Shown here piece by piece: positions 3,767 to 34,613 of a stretch of 37,314 bases of DNA (positions are counted from its first letter, which is position 1; every line of letters begins with the position of its first letter). The notes beneath the pieces are model-generated. The model saw only the letters and a program-made list of their open reading frames with translations. It did not search any database and was not told the DNA's origin. The stretch spans positions 1-37,314 of IMG/VR virus record IMGVR_UViG_3300035698_002993; one strand, given 5' to 3'. Source of the DNA: a virus. Both the position numbers and the translations under genes were made by a program.

Positions 3767-4432
3767 ATGCCAGATAAAAAAGAAAATAAAGAACAACGAA
3801 TATTAGGGCTAGAAGATGTCGAGTTGAGAGTTGAGGGTGAAGATAACCCTAAACTCAAGGGCTATGCTGCCAAGTTCAACTCGTTTACTGATTTGGGCTG
3901 GTTCAGAGAAAAAATCCAAACCGGTGCTTTCGATGGGGCGATAGTGGATAGTGATGTTCGGTGTCTAAAGAACCACGACGCAAACCTGATACTAGGCCGT
4001 ACCACTAACGGAACTCTGCGACTTAACTCAAATTCTGTCGGTTTAGGCTTTGAAAATGATTTACCTAACACAACAACCGGTAATGATACACGAGAAGAAG
4101 TTAAGCGAGGCGATATTAGCGGGTGCAGCTTTGCGTTTACAGTAGCGGAGGATAAGTGGAAGAATTTTGACGATGGATCACCATCAGAGAGGACCATCGT
4201 TAAAGTGGGAGAGCTGTTTGATGTAGGGCCGGTTACATATCCGGCATATCCGGACACCTCGGTTGCTGCGAGGAGTTTGGAAAAGGTAAAAAAGGAAGAA
4301 ATTAAAGAAGTTAAAGAAGTTGAAGAAAAGAATGAACCTGAATTTGTAGATGCTGAACGGCAAAAAGATATTGAAAGGAAATATCGCAAAACCGCTCGCA
4401 TTATAAATAGGAATAAGTCAGCCGATGTTTGA
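3767..4432 (+). CDS. HK97-family prohead protease
   Basis: A 221-residue serine protease that trims the capsid delta domain during prohead maturation. The core matches the HK97 family: GYAAKFNS, FREKIQTGAFDGAI, a catalytic histidine in LKNHDANLILGRT (about 63-75), and the serine in GDISGCSFAFTV (about 116-127). The C-terminal ~45 residues are Lys/Glu-rich and probably a scaffold-like tail. The start is set by AGGAG seven bases upstream. It lies between portal and capsid, the standard order. Confidence 0.93.
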   Translation: MPDKKENKEQRILGLEDVELRVEGEDNPKLKGYAAKFNSFTDLGWFREKIQTGAFDGAIVDSDVRCLKNHDANLILGRTTNGTLRLNSNSVGLGFENDLPNTTTGNDTREEVKRGDISGCSFAFTVAEDKWKNFDDGSPSERTIVKVGELFDVGPVTYPAYPDTSVAARSLEKVKKEEIKEVKEVEEKNEPEFVDAERQKDIERKYRKTARIINRNKSADV

Positions 4433-4492
4433 TTTGTTCGCCAGTCCGATGTATTGGAATAAACATTAACGTATTTTGTAAGGAATTTTATC

Positions 4493-5821
4493 ATGACAGT
4501 AATAGAACTAAGAGAGCGAGCCGTCACCGAAGCTGAGTCGGCCCGTAGTATCAAAGACAAGGCCGATGAAGAAGCTCGAGGCATGACCGAAGAGGAAGCT
4601 GGTAAGTTCGACGGACATCTAAAGGAGGCTGAACGGCTTGAAAAAGAGGCCGAGCGACAGGCAACCCTGGAAAAAATGGAAACCAGGTTAAATGAACCGG
4701 CCACCAGAAAAGTAACACCAGAGACAGCGAATGGCGAAAGAATTGAAACAGTAGCACCAAATATGTTCCGGTTCGGCGAGCTAAGAGCGTTTAAGGGCAA
4801 AACTGCTAGTGCCGATGCCTATAAGTCAGGTAAATGGCTTATGGCTGCCGTTATGGACGATGCGCCTGCTAGGCAATGGTGTAGAGATCGCGGTATTGAA
4901 GTTCGAGTCCAGACCGAGGGTGTTAATACTGCCGGTGGATTTATTGTTCCTGATGTTATGGAACGAGCGATCATTGATCTTCGTGAGAAATATGGCGTAA
5001 TGCGAGCGAATTGTCGGGTATTCCCTATGAGTAGTGACCATTCAATTATCCCGCGCAGAACTGGTGGGGTTACTGCCTATTTCATTGGCGAGACAACTGC
5101 GATAACCGAATCCGAAAAGAGTTGGAATCAGGTTGAGTTAACAGCGAAGAAACTGGGCGCTTTAACTCGCATGTCAACCGACCTCAATGAAGATGCGATC
5201 ATCAATATCGCAGATGATTTGGCCGAGGAAATGGCTTGGGCGTTCGCCAAAAAAGAAGATGAGTGTGGGCTTGATGGTGATGGGACTAATACCTACGGCG
5301 GTATGGTAGGTATCAGGACGAAGTTTGTCGATGGTAATCACACAGCAGGTCGATATGAGGGTACTTCGCCTTTCACGGATTGGAGTCATATGACATTGGC
5401 AGATGAGATTGTTTCTGTAATGGCTCTATTACCAACGTATGCACTTCCGAGAGCTAAGTGGTATATCAACCAGACAGGTAAAGCGTCTGCGTTTGATGCT
5501 ATTGCTTTAGCGGCTGGTGGTAATACAACCAAAGAAATCGCTTCTGGAGCTCAACCCATGTTTGCTGGTTATCCGGTAGTTGTAACGGCAGCAATGCCAT
5601 CAGCACCAACCGATCAGACAATCGCTATTTTATTCGGTGATTTGAGCCTTTCGACAACCCTAGGTGATCGCAGAGGTATCACGTTGAAAGTATCATCTGA
5701 TAGGTATCTGGAATATGATCAGATCGGCATCCAAGCAACTGAACGTTTCTGTATAGTTAACCATGATATTGGTGATACCAGTACAGCAGGGCCGGTTGTA
5801 GCTTTAATGGGCAACACCTAA
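4493..5821 (+). CDS. Major capsid protein, HK97 fold
   Basis: A 442-residue major head protein. Residues 1 to about 95 are strongly charged and predicted coiled coil (ELRERAVTEAESARS; EAERLEKEAERQATLEKME), as expected for a delta/scaffold domain removed by the upstream protease. The rest matches the HK97-like capsid family: GGFIVPDVMERAIIDLREKYGVMR, IPRRTGG, WNQVELTAKKLGALTRMSTDLNED and a C-terminal EYDQIGIQATERFCIVNHD. AAGGA precedes the ATG. The strength of the family-like segments and the gene order make this one of the surest calls. Confidence 0.95.
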   Translation: MTVIELRERAVTEAESARSIKDKADEEARGMTEEEAGKFDGHLKEAERLEKEAERQATLEKMETRLNEPATRKVTPETANGERIETVAPNMFRFGELRAFKGKTASADAYKSGKWLMAAVMDDAPARQWCRDRGIEVRVQTEGVNTAGGFIVPDVMERAIIDLREKYGVMRANCRVFPMSSDHSIIPRRTGGVTAYFIGETTAITESEKSWNQVELTAKKLGALTRMSTDLNEDAIINIADDLAEEMAWAFAKKEDECGLDGDGTNTYGGMVGIRTKFVDGNHTAGRYEGTSPFTDWSHMTLADEIVSVMALLPTYALPRAKWYINQTGKASAFDAIALAAGGNTTKEIASGAQPMFAGYPVVVTAAMPSAPTDQTIAILFGDLSLSTTLGDRRGITLKVSSDRYLEYDQIGIQATERFCIVNHDIGDTSTAGPVVALMGNT

Positions 5822-26917: not shown

Positions 26918-27868
26918 TTAGTAGTTGATTGTTACGTTTGGGATATGACCTTCTTTGATAACAGTTATAACATCTTCCGAATTAAAATCAGGGCCAAAAG
27001 CCGCTGTCAACGCGTGAATAGCTTTATTTTCGACATTCTGGCGATGTTTCTTGTCCGCAACCCTCTTTGCCTCAATGCCAGCAAGCCTTTCCTTCTCGCC
27101 CTCTTCGGCTACTTCCTTAGCTAATCGGTTGGCTTCGCGTTCAACTTCTATCTTACGAGCGGCTTCGGCTTTTGCTTTTTCAGCGGCCAATACATTGGCC
27201 TGTTCTTTTTGTTCTGCTTCGGCCTTAGCTTTCTCGGCAGCAAGTTTATCATCAGCTTTTTTCTGGGCAGCAACCACCGCATCGGCGTAGGCTTTTCGCT
27301 CCTTTTCGGCCTTAGCTCTTTCAGTGGCCAACTTGGCGTCTGCTCTTTTCTTGTCAGTGACTATCTTCTTCTCACGCTTAACTGCATCAGCCTTTAGTTT
27401 TTCGTTCTCGATACGGACACGCTCTCTTTCATCAGCCTCAGCTTTTTCTTTGGCTATTCGTTCCTCTTCCATTTTACGTTCAATTTCCAATCGCATCACG
27501 GCCTCTTTTTCAGCCTTTTTAATTTCGATAAAATTCTCTTGGTTTTCGAGGTACTTTTCGATTGGGGCTATTAACGCCTTTAATACATTGGCGATACCGT
27601 CAATAGCTTTACCCTCTTGTAAGGCTTGCTCTTTGAGTTCCTTGCGGGTTTTCTCGACAGCGATACGTTTAGCCCTTAAATGTAATCGACCAACCTTAGC
27701 CATCTCCATATCTGCCGTTTGGGATTCGTCAGTAACTACAATAGTTTTAGCTTTCTTATCCCACTCATCAGCCATCTCAAAGTAATTACTGAACTTCGCC
27801 AAGAGCATCTTGCCCTTAGCTGGTTCAAGACCGCTTTCCGTTACCATAACTTGTAATTTGTTTTCCAT
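26918..27868 (-). CDS. Long coiled-coil protein, probable recombination accessory
   Basis: A 316-residue protein. A helical N-terminal domain (about 1-110; WDKKAKTIVVTDESQTADME) is followed by a long Ala/Lys/Glu coiled coil (about 110-265, repeats such as AAEKAKAEAEQK and AAEKAKAEAARK). It ends in a small domain (HALTAAFGPDFNSEDVITV). The domain plan resembles DUF1351-type phage proteins found next to exonuclease and SSB genes. The TTG of the longer frame was rejected because it lies in the previous gene; this ATG follows GGAG. Confidence 0.62.
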   Translation of the reverse strand: MENKLQVMVTESGLEPAKGKMLLAKFSNYFEMADEWDKKAKTIVVTDESQTADMEMAKVGRLHLRAKRIAVEKTRKELKEQALQEGKAIDGIANVLKALIAPIEKYLENQENFIEIKKAEKEAVMRLEIERKMEEERIAKEKAEADERERVRIENEKLKADAVKREKKIVTDKKRADAKLATERAKAEKERKAYADAVVAAQKKADDKLAAEKAKAEAEQKEQANVLAAEKAKAEAARKIEVEREANRLAKEVAEEGEKERLAGIEAKRVADKKHRQNVENKAIHALTAAFGPDFNSEDVITVIKEGHIPNVTINY

Positions 27869-27872
27869 TTCT

Positions 27873-28667
27873 TTACTCCATTCCTTCAAAAATATTCTTA
27901 ACTGGGTTTTTAATTAAATTAAATTGCGTTTCTAAATCATTAAACTGCCAATAAAAATCTTTAAGGCTCATAAAAGCCCTTTCTAATCTTTCCCTGTCAG
28001 GTGTAAACTTACCGTTAGGGTTAAGTTTTGTTTTCTTCTCGCTAAAATTGCACGAGCCAGTCTTTTTGTCGAGGCGTATTATACCTATTTCTTTGATTTC
28101 CATTGAAGGTGGCTCTGTGTCTTTCCATGCCTTAGCATAAGCCGCCAACTGCAAGCCCATCTCTGGATAGTAAGCCTTAGAGGTCTTAATATCGTACAGA
28201 CCTAACTTACCTTTGCGGTAGGCAATCAAATCACACCTACCAGAATAGCCATCACCGTGAAGTTTAATCTCGACCTCAACAGGTTTGATTTCGTTCTTGA
28301 CACACCATATTTTAAAGTTACCCATCATCTTGATAGTAATGTCATCAGCTTTATCTAGGGGTAATACTTTATCCTCTAAATACAACTGGCATAGTTCGTG
28401 AATATCAGTACCTGTATCTAAGGCTTCCTGTGATATTGTCTTATAGGCGGTTCGGGCATCGTGAAAAACCTCTGTGCATTGGACATATCCCTTTTCGTCC
28501 GTAAAGCTGTCGATATAATCAACAGCACAATTAGCTGCCCATTGCCTGAGTACTGGCTTGTCCGTGCAGCCCGTGATAGACGTAACAGACGGCACTAAGC
28601 CCTGCGGGTTGTCTGGATAGACCCTGCACTTACCGCTGGTTTTGGTTTTTATGTTAAATTCCTGCAT
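27873..28667 (-). CDS. PD-(D/E)XK nuclease (Cas4/RecB-like exonuclease)
   Basis: A 264-residue nuclease. The core is GYSGRCDLIAYRKGKLGLYD followed by IKTSKAYYPEMGLQLAAYAK, which gives the D...D-x-K signature (DIKTSK) and a Q-x-x-x-Y motif. The N-terminal PSVTSITGCTDKPVLRQWAA is typical of phage RecB-type exonucleases. It probably degrades DNA ends for recombination with the SSB-like and coiled-coil partners. Start set by GGAG five bases before the ATG; the longer frame overlaps the upstream small gene. Confidence 0.8.
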   Translation of the reverse strand: MQEFNIKTKTSGKCRVYPDNPQGLVPSVTSITGCTDKPVLRQWAANCAVDYIDSFTDEKGYVQCTEVFHDARTAYKTISQEALDTGTDIHELCQLYLEDKVLPLDKADDITIKMMGNFKIWCVKNEIKPVEVEIKLHGDGYSGRCDLIAYRKGKLGLYDIKTSKAYYPEMGLQLAAYAKAWKDTEPPSMEIKEIGIIRLDKKTGSCNFSEKKTKLNPNGKFTPDRERLERAFMSLKDFYWQFNDLETQFNLIKNPVKNIFEGME

Positions 28668-28829: not shown

Positions 28830-29036
28830 CTATTCCCCTTCACACTCTTTACCGCAAGTCCATTTTAGATTATCCAAATCCTGTTTCATGCACAACGTAC
28901 AGCCCTTATGCCCACAAACGCAGCACTTCGCAACTTCGCCCTCATTGACTGTCTCGCCGCAATCGCAATGATGCTCTACTGGGTCAGCTTCGGGCGGTTC
29001 TGGGTATCGTGTCCAGTCTAGTGGTTCTTTGTCCAT
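28830..29036 (-). CDS. Cys-rich zinc-finger protein
   Basis: A 68-residue protein with ten Cys and two His: HHCDCGE, KCCVCGHKGCTLCMKQ, WTCGKECEGE. The spacing looks like a RING- or FYVE-like double zinc site. It overlaps the lysozyme-like gene by one base (TAATG). Function unknown; probable protein-interaction module. Confidence 0.65.
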   Translation of the reverse strand: MDKEPLDWTRYPEPPEADPVEHHCDCGETVNEGEVAKCCVCGHKGCTLCMKQDLDNLKWTCGKECEGE

Positions 29037-29506
29037 TATTTTAATACCGCCTTCACTTTAGACCAATACTTTTCGGTTGATTCTTTTTTGTGTCCCTGCG
29101 GCCCGCCGTTGTGCTTGCGTGCCATTTCTTCAAACGTACCGCCGTAATGGTTGAGATAAGTATTAACCATCCACCTACTGCACGCTCTTGACCTTCTGTG
29201 GTGGTATTCGTATTGTATAGGGGTTAAATACTTATCACTATGATTAAGTCTATTGATTCTATTTACGTCATCTACATATATCTTCCATATCTGAAAACTC
29301 CCAACAGCTTTACCATTATCGCCTATCGCATTGGCATCGCCGCCAGATTCGACCTGCTCAATGGCATCAAGTAAATCCTCAAAAGTAGGCACATGTTCAG
29401 CCATTACAGGCGTTTGGCTATCCTGCTCAATGTCAAGGTTAATAAACAGCCCTATAATCATACCAATCGCAATAGCACTACCAAAATATAGAATGTGGTA
29501 TTTCAT
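29036..29506 (-). CDS. Membrane-anchored lytic transglycosylase/lysozyme-like protein
   Basis: A 156-residue protein. Residues ~6-24 (LYFGSAIAIGMIIGLFINL) form an N-terminal membrane segment of signal-anchor type. The catalytic domain has DLLDAIEQVESGGDANAIGD (catalytic Glu in the IEQVESGG motif), followed by KAVGSFQIWKIYVDDVNRI and MARKHNGGPQG, the pattern of SLT/lysozyme-like enzymes. A weakly hydrophobic signal-anchor-release (SAR) mode is possible. It lies just downstream of the structured RNA region and its promoter; AAAGGA sets the start. Confidence 0.75.
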   Translation of the reverse strand: MKYHILYFGSAIAIGMIIGLFINLDIEQDSQTPVMAEHVPTFEDLLDAIEQVESGGDANAIGDNGKAVGSFQIWKIYVDDVNRINRLNHSDKYLTPIQYEYHHRRSRACSRWMVNTYLNHYGGTFEEMARKHNGGPQGHKKESTEKYWSKVKAVLK

Positions 29507-29529
29507 TTTTTAATCCTTTCACGCTACTA

Positions 29530-29850
29530 TCACGCTATTAACTTTTTAAATACCAGCGTAAGGCACAGGTCTTACGGTTATGATTAGCACCTGAAGATAC
29601 TAATCAGCCTGTACCTTAGCAACCACGTTTAAGGTTGCCAATGCTGGTTTTATCATCGGGCAGTATTCTTGCTTTTTAGTAGCAAGCCGATTTTCGCCTG
29701 CTTTACGGTTTTACAAACTTTTGTTTGCCGATGATATTTCTCTATTTACTTTTTAAAAGCAAGCCAGCCGGTGCAATGAACGCCGGACAGGGAGTCTCCG
29801 ATGTGATTTCCGACTGGCTTAATTGTGTAGCTAATGCGTTCATTGCGTGT
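29530..29850 (-). ncRNA. Candidate structured RNA / long structured leader
   Basis: No ORF lies here, and a - strand promoter ends at 29854. Helices seen, in + coordinates: GCAATGAACGC 29773-29783 with 29836-29846 (11 bp); AAGCCAG 29761-29767 with 29814-29820; CCGG 29768-29771 with 29783-29786; TATCATCGG 29651-29659 with 29728-29736; CTTGCT 29668-29673 with 29681-29686; CAAAC 29714-29718 with 29723-29727; ACCAGC 29552-29557 with 29643-29648; TAAGG-C-ACAGG 29559-29569 with 29608-29618 (one mismatch); TGATTAG 29581-29587 with 29600-29606; GCAACC 29619-29624 with 29633-29638. Together they make a 5' pseudoknot, a multibranch domain and a three-way junction. I do not recognise a known class. It could be a free RNA or the leader of the lysozyme-like gene; no terminator separates the two. 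Confidence 0.68.
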
Positions 29851-29853
29851 TCC

Positions 29854-29881
29854 AATATACCAAGTTATTTTAATTTGTCAA
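29854..29881 (-). promoter_or_regulatory. Sigma70-type promoter for the structured RNA
   Basis: On the - strand: TTGACA (29881-29876), 16 bases, TATATT (29859-29854). Expected start is near 29847, which is exactly the 5' end of the 11-bp pairing arm. The -35 is perfect and the -10 has one difference from consensus. Confidence 0.72.
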
Positions 29882-29928: not shown

Positions 29929-30159
29929 TTATTTCGGTAGAATTATCGGCTTCCAGTGGGATATTAAAAACTTCTCATAAGAAAACACATCTGCCGCCAC
30001 AGAAAACCAGCTCACCCATGCTGTAACATTGTCCGTTACCCAATATCTTCCGTCCTTTTCCGGCCTCTCGCTTACTGGTATCCAGCGGTACTTTTCGAGT
30101 TCGGTTTGGAGTTGGTGGTAGCGTTCTATTTCTATTAACATGTATTTTGTCTCACTCAT
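29929..30159 (-). CDS. DUF551-like protein
   Basis: A 76-residue protein with RWIPVSERPEKDGRYWVTDN in the middle and FLISHWKPIILP at the end, the signature of the DUF551 family (WIPVSERLPE ... THWxPLP) common in phages; function unknown. A short coiled coil precedes it. The second ATG of an AGGAGAATGAAGATG block is used. About 400 bases downstream of its end hold the structured RNA region. Confidence 0.72.
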   Translation of the reverse strand: MSETKYMLIEIERYHQLQTELEKYRWIPVSERPEKDGRYWVTDNVTAWVSWFSVAADVFSYEKFLISHWKPIILPK

Positions 30160-30169
30160 CTTCATTCTC

Positions 30170-32980: not shown

Positions 32981-33008
32981 TTGACATTGTAAAATTTTAT
33001 GCTACAAT
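32981..33008 (+). promoter_or_regulatory. Rightward promoter 1
   Basis: TTGACA (32981-32986), 16 bases, TACAAT (33003-33008) with an extended TG motif (TATGCTACAAT). Near consensus. Confidence 0.7.
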
Positions 33009-33045
33009 GCGGTTTAAAGGCTAAAAACAACGATTTATTCAAAAG

Positions 33046-33058
33046 TTGAGATTCTCAA
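33046..33058. promoter_or_regulatory. Candidate operator TTGAGA-T-TCTCAA
   Basis: A perfect 13-base dyad between two rightward promoters, ten bases upstream of the second -35. A plausible repressor or activator site; no direct evidence. Confidence 0.45.
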
Positions 33059-33067
33059 AGATTTTGC

Positions 33068-33096
33068 TTGCAATTTTGTGGGTATTATGGTATAAG
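33068..33096 (+). promoter_or_regulatory. Rightward promoter 2 (for small RNA)
   Basis: TTGCAA (33068-33073), 17 bases, TATAAG (33091-33096) with TGG directly before it. The start is expected near 33103, just ahead of the first pseudoknot arm. Confidence 0.55.
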
Positions 33097-33102
33097 TAAG
33101 TC

Positions 33103-33222
33103 ATGGATAGAATAAACATAGTCAAATACTTGGTTTGTGGAAAGCTAAACCCTTTCACTCTATCCATCACAAACCAATTAAATACGAAGTCCAGATGGTT
33201 ACCACTGTCTGGGCTTTTTTTT
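33103..33222 (+). ncRNA. Candidate ~120-nt small RNA with pseudoknot and terminator
   Basis: Stem 1: TGGATAGA (33104-33111) with TCTATCCA (33159-33166), 8 bp. Stem 2: TTGGTTTGTG (33130-33139) with CACAAACCAA (33168-33177), 10 bp. The arms interleave, so they form an H-type pseudoknot. A 5-bp hairpin GAAAG/CTTTC (33140-33144 and 33152-33156) sits in its loop. It ends in an intrinsic terminator. The region is also in frame with the next gene from an ATG at 33103 that has no ribosome-binding site; a leaderless peptide cannot be excluded but would have to read through the terminator. Confidence 0.65.
33187..33222 (+). terminator. Intrinsic (rho-independent) terminator
   Basis: AAGTCCAGA (33187-33195) pairs with TCTGGGCTT (33208-33216), nine pairs with one G-T, with an inner TGG-TTA-CCA hairpin. 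A run of eight T residues follows (33215-33222). Confidence 0.75.
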
Positions 33223-33749: not shown

Positions 33750-34316
33750 ATGGCGGTAACTAAACTTAAAGGATTTAACCACAATAAGTGGTGTATAGTA
33801 TGTAAGAAACAAGCTAAATTAGATGTTCGGTTCAAGAGCCTTACTGGATACTACTGTAAGAAGTGTTATAAAAAATGGTGTACTAGAAGGAAATTAGAGA
33901 AAAAGAACGAACATGTCAAAAAACGACCATTTTCACCCAAAAGCAAAAACTCACTTAAAAGTAAACAAAAGACCGTAACTAAAAGAGTTTTAAATTTACG
34001 CCGAAGAGCAACACCTGCTGAACTCTGTTTTTTAAAGAAACTCAAAAAAGTGTGTCCGGTAAAATTTAAGTTCCAGCGAGGATTTATAAAAGGTGGCTAT
34101 TATGCTATTGTTGACTTCCATATCCCGTCAAGAAAGTTGTGTATTGAAATTGATGGTGGCTACCACGACAACCCTGAACAGCAGAAAAAGGACACAAGAA
34201 GGGATAATTGGCTTCGGGATAGACGCAAACAACGAGTTATCCGCATAACCAACCAACGAGCCTTTGATATTACCCCCGAAGAAGTGAAGGGGCTAATAGC
34301 AATAGTCCGCTTATAA
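33750..34316 (+). CDS. DUF559/Vsr-like endonuclease with N-terminal zinc ribbon
   Basis: A 188-residue protein. Residues ~15-45 contain CIVC ... CKKC, a zinc ribbon, followed by a very basic linker. The nuclease domain (~85-188) has RRATPAELCFLKKL, then KFQRGFIKGGYYAIVDFHIP and KLCIEIDGGYHDN, and the end RVIRITNQRAFDITPEEV. The AE..., VDF and EIDG acids are those of the DUF559/very-short-patch-like PD-(D/E)XK nucleases. Such enzymes can be homing or repair nucleases. No clear ribosome-binding site; it starts within the end of the open frame described just upstream. Confidence 0.75.
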   Translation: MAVTKLKGFNHNKWCIVCKKQAKLDVRFKSLTGYYCKKCYKKWCTRRKLEKKNEHVKKRPFSPKSKNSLKSKQKTVTKRVLNLRRRATPAELCFLKKLKKVCPVKFKFQRGFIKGGYYAIVDFHIPSRKLCIEIDGGYHDNPEQQKKDTRRDNWLRDRRKQRVIRITNQRAFDITPEEVKGLIAIVRL

Positions 34317-34353: not shown

Positions 34354-34382
34354 TTGACATGCTAAGGAAAGTGTGCTAGCAT
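34354..34382 (+). promoter_or_regulatory. Promoter for a leaderless gene
   Basis: TTGACA (34354-34359), 17 bases, TAGCAT (34377-34382) with TGC before it, preceded by the shared AATAGTTC block. The start point should fall at about 34389, the A of the next gene's ATG. Confidence 0.62.
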
Positions 34383-34388
34383 ACAATC

Positions 34389-34613
34389 ATGGAAGATATA
34401 CTTGCTGAAAGATTGGTTTGTTTGAATGAGGCTTTAGTCGAGGCTGATACGGAGGCCACCGCTCTAATTCTTCTCATCGAGCAGCAAACCCCGCAGCAAA
34501 TAACACTCAAAACCGATCTTATGAACTCCCTGAGGGCTATCCGCAAGAAAATAACCAAGATAGTAACCCGAGATTTGATTTATATTAGAGATGGACTGGA
34601 AGACACAAAATAG
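34389..34613 (+). CDS. Helical small protein, probably leaderless
   Basis: A 74-residue all-helical protein (MEDILAERLVCLNEALVEAD ... TDLMNSLRAIRKKITKIVTR). No ribosome-binding site precedes it, but a strong promoter ends seven bases upstream of the ATG, so its mRNA is expected to begin at the start codon. Function unknown; promoter-proximal isolation hints at a regulator or early host-interaction protein. Confidence 0.6.
   Translation: MEDILAERLVCLNEALVEADTEATALILLIEQQTPQQITLKTDLMNSLRAIRKKITKIVTRDLIYIRDGLEDTK

Follow-up and report, generated by a model that had tools for sequence, protein, structure and literature searches.

A recurring promoter-proximal leader with a short ORF and a pseudoknot, probably a translation-coupled attenuator, in uncultivated phages

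Among known systems, the phage leader element that we describe here, in which we infer attenuation from the DNA, appears to come nearest to the ribosome-dependent attenuators, and of these to the leaderless trpL of Sinorhizobium meliloti. The S. meliloti rnTrpL begins with the ATG of trpL (PMC7298713). The phage element likewise has an upstream ORF at or near the predicted 5' end of its transcript, and it shares with trp-type attenuators a set of overlapping RNA structures that ends in an intrinsic terminator, here a terminator-like one, before a structural gene. However, the phage ORF has 26–39 codons and trpL has 14. Unlike trp-type attenuators, the phage leaders have no run of regulatory amino-acid codons, we found no separate trp-type antiterminator helix in them, and their helices cross in the order a-b-a'-b', helix a containing or adjoining the start codon. 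The phage element also occurs in several copies per genome before unrelated genes.

The 5' leader of phage T4 gene 32 is a small noncoding pseudoknot that nucleates its own protein. Like our element, it is an H-type pseudoknot close to the promoter in the leader of a phage mRNA, but the knot that we describe spans 70–100 nt of coding sequence, resembles a terminator and is not bound to a single gene. ToxI and pseudo-ToxI (PMC3475682) are also phage-encoded pseudoknotted RNAs, with repeated units in some phage loci. ToxI consists of 36-nt noncoding sequence repeats, whereas our element is coding and its copies lack sequence conservation. Our searches of titles and abstracts in an open-access library gave no description of such a leader element.

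The leader element in the window

The window, which is the whole stretch of DNA that we analysed, is the record of a single uncultivated virus and is 37,314 bases long. Its gene set is that of an ordinary tailed phage. We read ORFs on the + strand as terminase, portal, protease and major capsid protein, names that come from reading the sequence without a profile test, and the − strand has a packed early/accessory operon that includes an exonuclease (PHROG 298). A protein with a DUF559 (very short patch repair-like) endonuclease domain is encoded in the accessory region (33750-34316, + strand). The structured region is on the − strand, flanked by a 78-aa ORF (29929-30165) and the gene for a lysozyme-like protein, which just missed the curated cut-off of its Pfam family (E 1.3e-5, 25.9 bits, cut-off 26.2). 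The features of the first domain, W_D1, and of the gene behind it are:

29854-29881, − strand: sigma70-type promoter, TTGACA (29881-29876), a 16-nt spacer and TATATT (29859-29854), with TG ahead of the second hexamer (direct reading)
29742-29843, − strand: leader ORF of 33 codons plus TAG, peptide MNALATQLSQSEITSETPCPAFIAPAGLLLKSK (direct translation)
29836-29846, − strand: pseudoknot strand a, GCAATGAACGC, which holds the leader start codon and pairs exactly with 29783-29773
29810-29821, − strand: pseudoknot strand b, TAAGCCAGTCGG, the 5' arm of the terminator-like hairpin, which pairs with 29771-29760
29773-29783, − strand: pseudoknot strand a', GCGTTCATTGC, the complement of the region around the leader start codon
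29755-29771, − strand: strand b', CCGGCTGGCTTG, then CTTTT, a weak intrinsic-terminator-like leader end
29036-29506, − strand: downstream gene, 156 aa, Destabilase/lysozyme-like with an N-terminal hydrophobic stretch (Pfam PF05497)

An earlier note on this DNA had described the region as one RNA element of about 320 nt in a gene-free stretch, with a consensus promoter and an 11-bp pseudoknot pairing. The promoter is there and scored 11 of 12 matches in our promoter scan, and promoters of this type stand at the same place ahead of several other copies of the element. Contrary to the note, the stretch is not free of genes, since the 33-codon ORF fills domain 1. Its ATG lies 11 nt past the end of the −10 hexamer and its stop codon just beyond the terminator-like hairpin. 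Nor is the region one element, because a syntenic phage has the pseudoknot leader without the two domains that follow it here. The feature is two things joined: a leader element (29742-29846) and a structured insert of about 200 nt (29551-29741).

The 11-bp pairing of a with a' is exact, as the note had said, and it crosses the pairing of b with b', so the fold is an H-type pseudoknot. Strand a has an equivalent position at the start of the ORF in other copies, and crossing helices like these are rare in shuffled DNA. The two helices have energies of −16.8 and −20.0 kcal/mol, with a sum of −36.8 kcal/mol versus −29.6 for the best nested fold; the energy model cannot score pseudoknots, and with the usual pseudoknot penalty the sum comes to about the nested value. 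The a:a' pairing in W_D1 is therefore plausible but not certain, and recurrence supports it more than energy does.

Folding of the whole region (29530-29850) gave −109.8 versus −74.4 ± 5.8 for dinucleotide shuffles (z −6.1), so the region is far more stable than shuffled sequence, which is the comparison the note had suggested. By domain, the z-scores were −2.5 for D1 (from a nested-fold program, which is blind to the pseudoknot), −4.3 for D2, −6.2 for D3 and −7.6 for D2 and D3 together. The note had recognised no riboswitch, tmRNA, RNase P, group I intron, GOLLD or ROOL, and our Rfam search agrees: there was no match at the gathering score in the window, and in the region we saw only chance matches with E of at least 6.

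Copies in related phages

A search with the lysozyme-like protein found five relatives and, with an alignment, sixty viral loci. The query with the second protein found one distant locus and the query with the exonuclease found nothing. One of the loci (L139, record G005, 45 kb) looks syntenic by reading, with a lysozyme-like gene, a YqaJ-type exonuclease and the next protein, and this third protein resembles window 26918-27889 in layout. Upstream of its lysozyme operon is TTGACA-N16-TATGAT, followed by the crossing pairs ATAAGGTGCTGGA/TTCAGCATCTTAT and ACAAAGGCCGCAG/CTGCGGTCTTTGT. The leader thus has the a-b-a'-b' topology of domain 1 with unrelated stem sequences, and has no domains 2 and 3. 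Searching with a descriptor of the crossing helices, we found another copy in G005 (score 65), one elsewhere in the window, and one in G006 in which the pseudoknot begins at the ATG and the reading frame spans the entire knot. The same descriptor also gave a looser look-alike in G008. In the window, the second copy, W_2, is made up as follows:

33091-33217, + strand: second copy, W_2, with −10-like TATAAG (33091-33096) and ATG at 33103 (7 nt on)
33103-33177, + strand: pseudoknot of W_2, ATGGATAGA/TCTATCCAT crossing TTGGTTTGTG/CACAAACCAA
33186-33217, + strand: separate strong intrinsic terminator of W_2, with T8, followed by an RBS and a 69-codon ORF

This copy deviates from the others in its separate terminator and in the length of its ORF, which is open in frame to 33447 and runs into the next ORF. 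There is a TTGACA promoter 95 nt upstream of W_2, besides the closer TATAAG (32981-33217, + strand). Further along this strand, at 34354-34613, a promoter-like site (TTGACA-N17-TAGCAT) has an ATG 7 nt past the −10 and a 74-codon ORF, which is another apparently leaderless gene.

For a replication set, we fetched 20 related viral loci with a terminase alignment of G005 and G006. The scan reported pseudoknots that had a score of at least 48 or a promoter upstream, and it found five new copies (L254, L255a, L255b, L255c and L257). In all five, an ATG adjoins strand a and the ORF has 26–36 codons. The list also included the known G005 and G006 copies, a mirror-image match on the opposite strand of L254 and a weak intragenic match (42.5). 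A stricter joint descriptor, which required an ORF from an ATG at a, the crossing helices, and an RBS and gene start past b', gave a sixth and weaker new copy, L255d. In total there are eleven copies in six records: two each in the window and G005, four in the L255 contig, and one each in G006, the L257 contig and the L254 contig.

Chance could have produced such a set if ordinary terminators and inverted repeats in AT-rich phages happened to coincide with ORFs and promoters. Unrelated viral DNA does have single crossing pairs with a score of at least 48 (we counted 19 in 2.1 Mb of strands), and short ORFs occur often. The probability of a stop-free ORF is 0.09–0.36 per copy; the case for the leader ORF rests on the whole set of copies and not on single ORFs. 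With a score of at least 44, however, the joint descriptor had nine matches in 0.89 Mb of related strands versus none in 3.7 Mb of other viral strands. W_D1 and W_2 are outside these nine because their gene starts are further off. Since we tuned the descriptor on the first copies, the independent test comes from the later loci only. When we shuffled codons while keeping the peptide composition, the observed score was reached 0 of 300 times in each of ten leaders, W_D1 among them, so codon content does not account for the pairing. With both results against it, we consider chance a highly improbable explanation.

The copies share one layout: a promoter, an ATG at or near the expected start site, an ORF of 26–39 codons, the knot inside the ORF, an RBS and the gene. 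The ORF has 33 codons in W_D1, 36 in G005_1, 34 in G005_2 and 39 in G006. The ATG is 7 nt past the −10 hexamer in G005_1, G006, L254, L255c and L257, and in W_2 by reading. From these distances we predict that the leader ORFs are leaderless or nearly so; they need not be strictly leaderless, given 11 nt in W_D1 and 13 nt in G005_2. Other ORFs in the same phages also start 7–8 nt past promoter-like hexamers, and such starts may be normal in the hosts of these phages. A good promoter is absent in L255a, L255b and L255d, and the −10 of G006 is poor. From the ATG to the end of b' is about 73–108 nt. Loop 1 is A-rich and nearly free of G (45% A and 6% G over 202 nt), and loop 3 is 0–10 nt; for L254, the loop 3 and ATG values were set aside. 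The leader stop codon lies from 5 nt before to 31 nt past the end of b' in a subset of copies.

Past b' there is a T-rich stretch (GGGCGGTTTTTTTT in G006, TTGGTTGATTTTTTTTT in L254, TGGGTGGTTTTTTTG in L255a and GGGCGGGTCTTTTTCTTT in L255b), which is weaker in W_D1 (GGCTTGCTTTT) and G005_1 than in other copies, and the leaders have ends like intrinsic terminators, such as GGGCGGTTTTTTTT in G006 and GGTTGATTTTTTTTT in L254. These ends are clear in G006, L254, L255a, L255b and, as a separate hairpin, W_2. They are weak in W_D1 and G005_1, which would suit a purely structural mRNA leader, where the pseudoknot at the 5' end blocks 5'-end-dependent decay or sets the translation of the next gene, and the short ORF either plays no part or encodes a small protein of the phage. 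It would also suit such a leader that strand a starts within about 15 nt of the −10 in most promoter-bearing copies. We think this unlikely, since 6–9 of the 9 nt in the tail past b' are T in seven of the nine matches of the stricter descriptor, and the ORF covers the pseudoknot in ten copies.

A gene start with an RBS lies 15–24 nt past b' in nine of the eleven copies, which leaves no room for a further promoter, so the gene would have to be read through the terminator-like hairpin. The genes behind the leaders differ: that of G006 encodes an HNH endonuclease, that behind L255c belongs to PHROG 4652, and the others encode small proteins of unknown function. Neither the stems nor the peptides are conserved between copies. 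The leader peptides are mutually dissimilar, and we found in them no common run of regulatory amino-acid codons, such as attenuators of the trp, his or leu type have.

Possible mechanism

We think it probable that the promoter-proximal third of the region is a recurring phage leader that works as a translation-coupled transcription attenuator. What points to this is the recurrence, the geometry, the ORF, a pseudoknot beyond chance, the terminator-like ends and the promoter. The earlier note had offered a riboregulatory leader as one reading, which is supported for this third, where the same architecture stands before other genes in related phages. We had at an early stage taken D1 for a free-standing noncoding RNA or antitoxin decoy, and we dropped this once we saw the ORFs. 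With a near-leaderless ORF, the likely mechanism shifts from a free-standing RNA to translation-coupled attenuation. The note had also thought of lysis timing, for which we found no specific support. Because the genes behind most copies are unrelated to one another, any control would not be specific to lysis.

The steps that follow presume transcription start sites, translation, termination, mutual exclusion of the helices and a regulatory role that we deduce from the layout. Transcription would begin at the AUG or a few bases before it, giving a leaderless or near-leaderless ORF of 26–39 codons. RNA polymerase would then make a (the start-codon region), b, a' and b' in turn, and after them usually a U-tract. 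Should no ribosome have loaded by then, a' would pair with a and hide the start codon, b and b' would form the terminator-like hairpin, and transcription would stop before the gene. A ribosome that loads at once and trails the polymerase would instead keep b open; the hairpin would then fail and the polymerase would read into the gene. The peptide would be immaterial and translation of the ORF alone would count, so that the device would report the rate of ribosome loading on a phage transcript.

Nested folding of six leaders is consistent with these steps. When we blocked the first 18 nt, b:b' remained intact, and when we blocked up to nt 55, it was abolished in all six. A ribosome that arrives early and keeps close should therefore permit read-through, whereas a late arrival should not. 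Since the peptides are not conserved and have no common codon run, the loading or speed of ribosomes is a likelier signal than a particular amino acid.

More tentatively, we propose a class of phage attenuators, in which the RNA of a leaderless mini-ORF would fold into a start-codon-sequestering pseudoknotted terminator, and transcription would go on only if a ribosome has loaded by the time the polymerase has made about 60–75 nt. The peptide would be irrelevant, and the element would be an interchangeable cassette that serves several operons per phage. Such a recurring regulatory device of uncultivated phages, without sequence conservation, would be findable by geometric search only; in our analysis, sequence searches and covariance models missed it. 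If the mechanism is true, the transcription of phage operons would be tied to the speed of ribosome loading in the host, the sensing of host state or of translation-blocking defences becomes plausible, and a start-codon-sequestering pseudoknot would join the known attenuators.

G008 and G010/L073 have a promoter and a pseudoknot and no ORF of 26–39 codons that starts at a, and some relatives may therefore do without the ORF. In G008 (L206:6759-6914), the promoter and strong crossing helices precede a 64-aa gene; it may be a looser relative or a look-alike. In G010, an unrelated phage (L073:7500-7720, − strand), TTGACT-N16-TATAAT is followed by the crossing pairs CCAATCTG/CAGATTGG and AAAACAAAATCCCCACT/AGTGGGGATTTTGTTTT and a T-tract before a gene, and the ORF at the leader start has about 20 codons only. 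A third case (L039:1724-1812, − strand) has perfect crossing helices of 11 and 18 bp, with a T-tract past the second, directly ahead of a gene that reads like a GIY-YIG homing endonuclease. We rejected L039 and L073/G010, both from unrelated phages, as copies and count them as look-alikes; both have strong crossing pairs upstream of genes, but neither has an ORF of 26–39 codons.

The structured insert and related hairpin arrays

In the window, the lysozyme-like gene starts 253 nt past b', because about 200 nt of very stable structure intervene. This part consists of:

29651-29736, − strand: domain 2, a 9-bp stem, TATCATCGG (29736-29728) with CCGATGATA (29659-29651), around hairpins and an unpaired AACCGTAA; z −4.3
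29552-29648, − strand: domain 3, a three-way junction closed by ACCAGC (29648-29643) and GCTGGT (29557-29552), with AACCGTAA; z −6.2
29742-29757, − strand: direct repeat (linker) copy 1, TTTAAAAAGTAAATAG, with which the leader ORF ends
29535-29550, − strand: direct repeat (linker) copy 2, TTTAAAAAGTTAATAG
29519-29537, − strand: two TAGCGTGA octamers ahead of the RBS (29537-29530 and 29526-29519)

By direct reading we recovered the 9-bp stem, the closing pair of the junction, the motif shared by two domains and the two octamers that the earlier note had listed. It had missed the 16-nt direct repeats, TTTAAAAAGTWAATAG, that flank the two domains (29757-29742 and 29550-29535). The two 16-mers are near-identical; copy 1 is an exact TTTAAAAAGTWAATAG, and the window has three matches at up to 2 mismatches versus 0.2 expected. 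Tandem near-identical repeats of about 34–50 nt, which would mark a type III RNA antitoxin or pseudo-ToxI, are absent from the region, where a repeat search gave only a 41-nt pair of 71% identity around the linkers.

Similar arrangements occur ahead of the lysozyme operon in other phages:

3940-4570 of IMGVR_UViG_3300035698_004036 (L002): array of at least five hairpins, the same in L003
1375-1800 of IMGVR_UViG_3300031885_000030 (L146): array flanked on one side by the lysozyme operon and on the other by an integrase-like gene that comes with a tRNA-like fragment

The L002/L003 phage has a lysozyme that is 56% identical to that of the window, and its array is 630 nt long and noncoding (z −7.7). 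The hairpins are split by linkers of the D2/D3 type (TTTAAAATTGAATAG twice and TTTAAAAAGTAAATA once). In L146, the array is similar with a different conserved linker, TTTTAATCTTTTGC, three times. We read D2/D3 as probably an insert of this sort, a structured-RNA cassette flanked by direct repeats. The Rfam search of the L002, L128 and L146 regions gave nothing at threshold, and a blastn comparison with known phages gave no useful match for the structured region of the window or for the arrays of L002 and L146.

For these domains and arrays, and not for D1, one might think of decoys, that is, processed structured RNAs that would bind RNA-binding toxins of the host, such as those of type III toxin-antitoxin systems or AbiF, and neutralise them. 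The phage PhiTE pseudo-ToxI is a precedent for such RNA mimicry (PMC3475682), and the L002 array, with its linkers of the D2/D3 type, would fit. One of its hairpins (L002:4430-4469) matches the abiF RNA (RF03085; RNA antitoxin RCd22, PMC12373285) with 25.3 bits (E 4.2e-4 for that record alone), and we found no Abi_2 gene in the L002 record or in five other records searched, so this hairpin is possibly an orphan antitoxin-like RNA. However, the match is below the gathering score of 37 bits and in another phage, no domain of the window matches any Rfam family, abiF included, and the D1 pseudoknot is coding and far larger than a ToxI repeat. We consider decoys quite unlikely.

Several patterns led to other things. 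The linker pattern TTTAAAAAGTWAATA was too unspecific in viral contigs, with 120 mostly chance stretches, which we reused as a control set. A double-linker pattern found L002/L003 only, besides a coding coincidence in L128, and the matches of AATAGYGTGATAGTAGC in L211-L213 were coding coincidences as well. L199/L200 have folding-significant upstream regions that are a different thing. Within the arrays themselves, two adjacent modules in L002 are closed by an identical stem, AGTGTGATAG/CTATCACACT, and in L146 each module is closed by a stem of its own.
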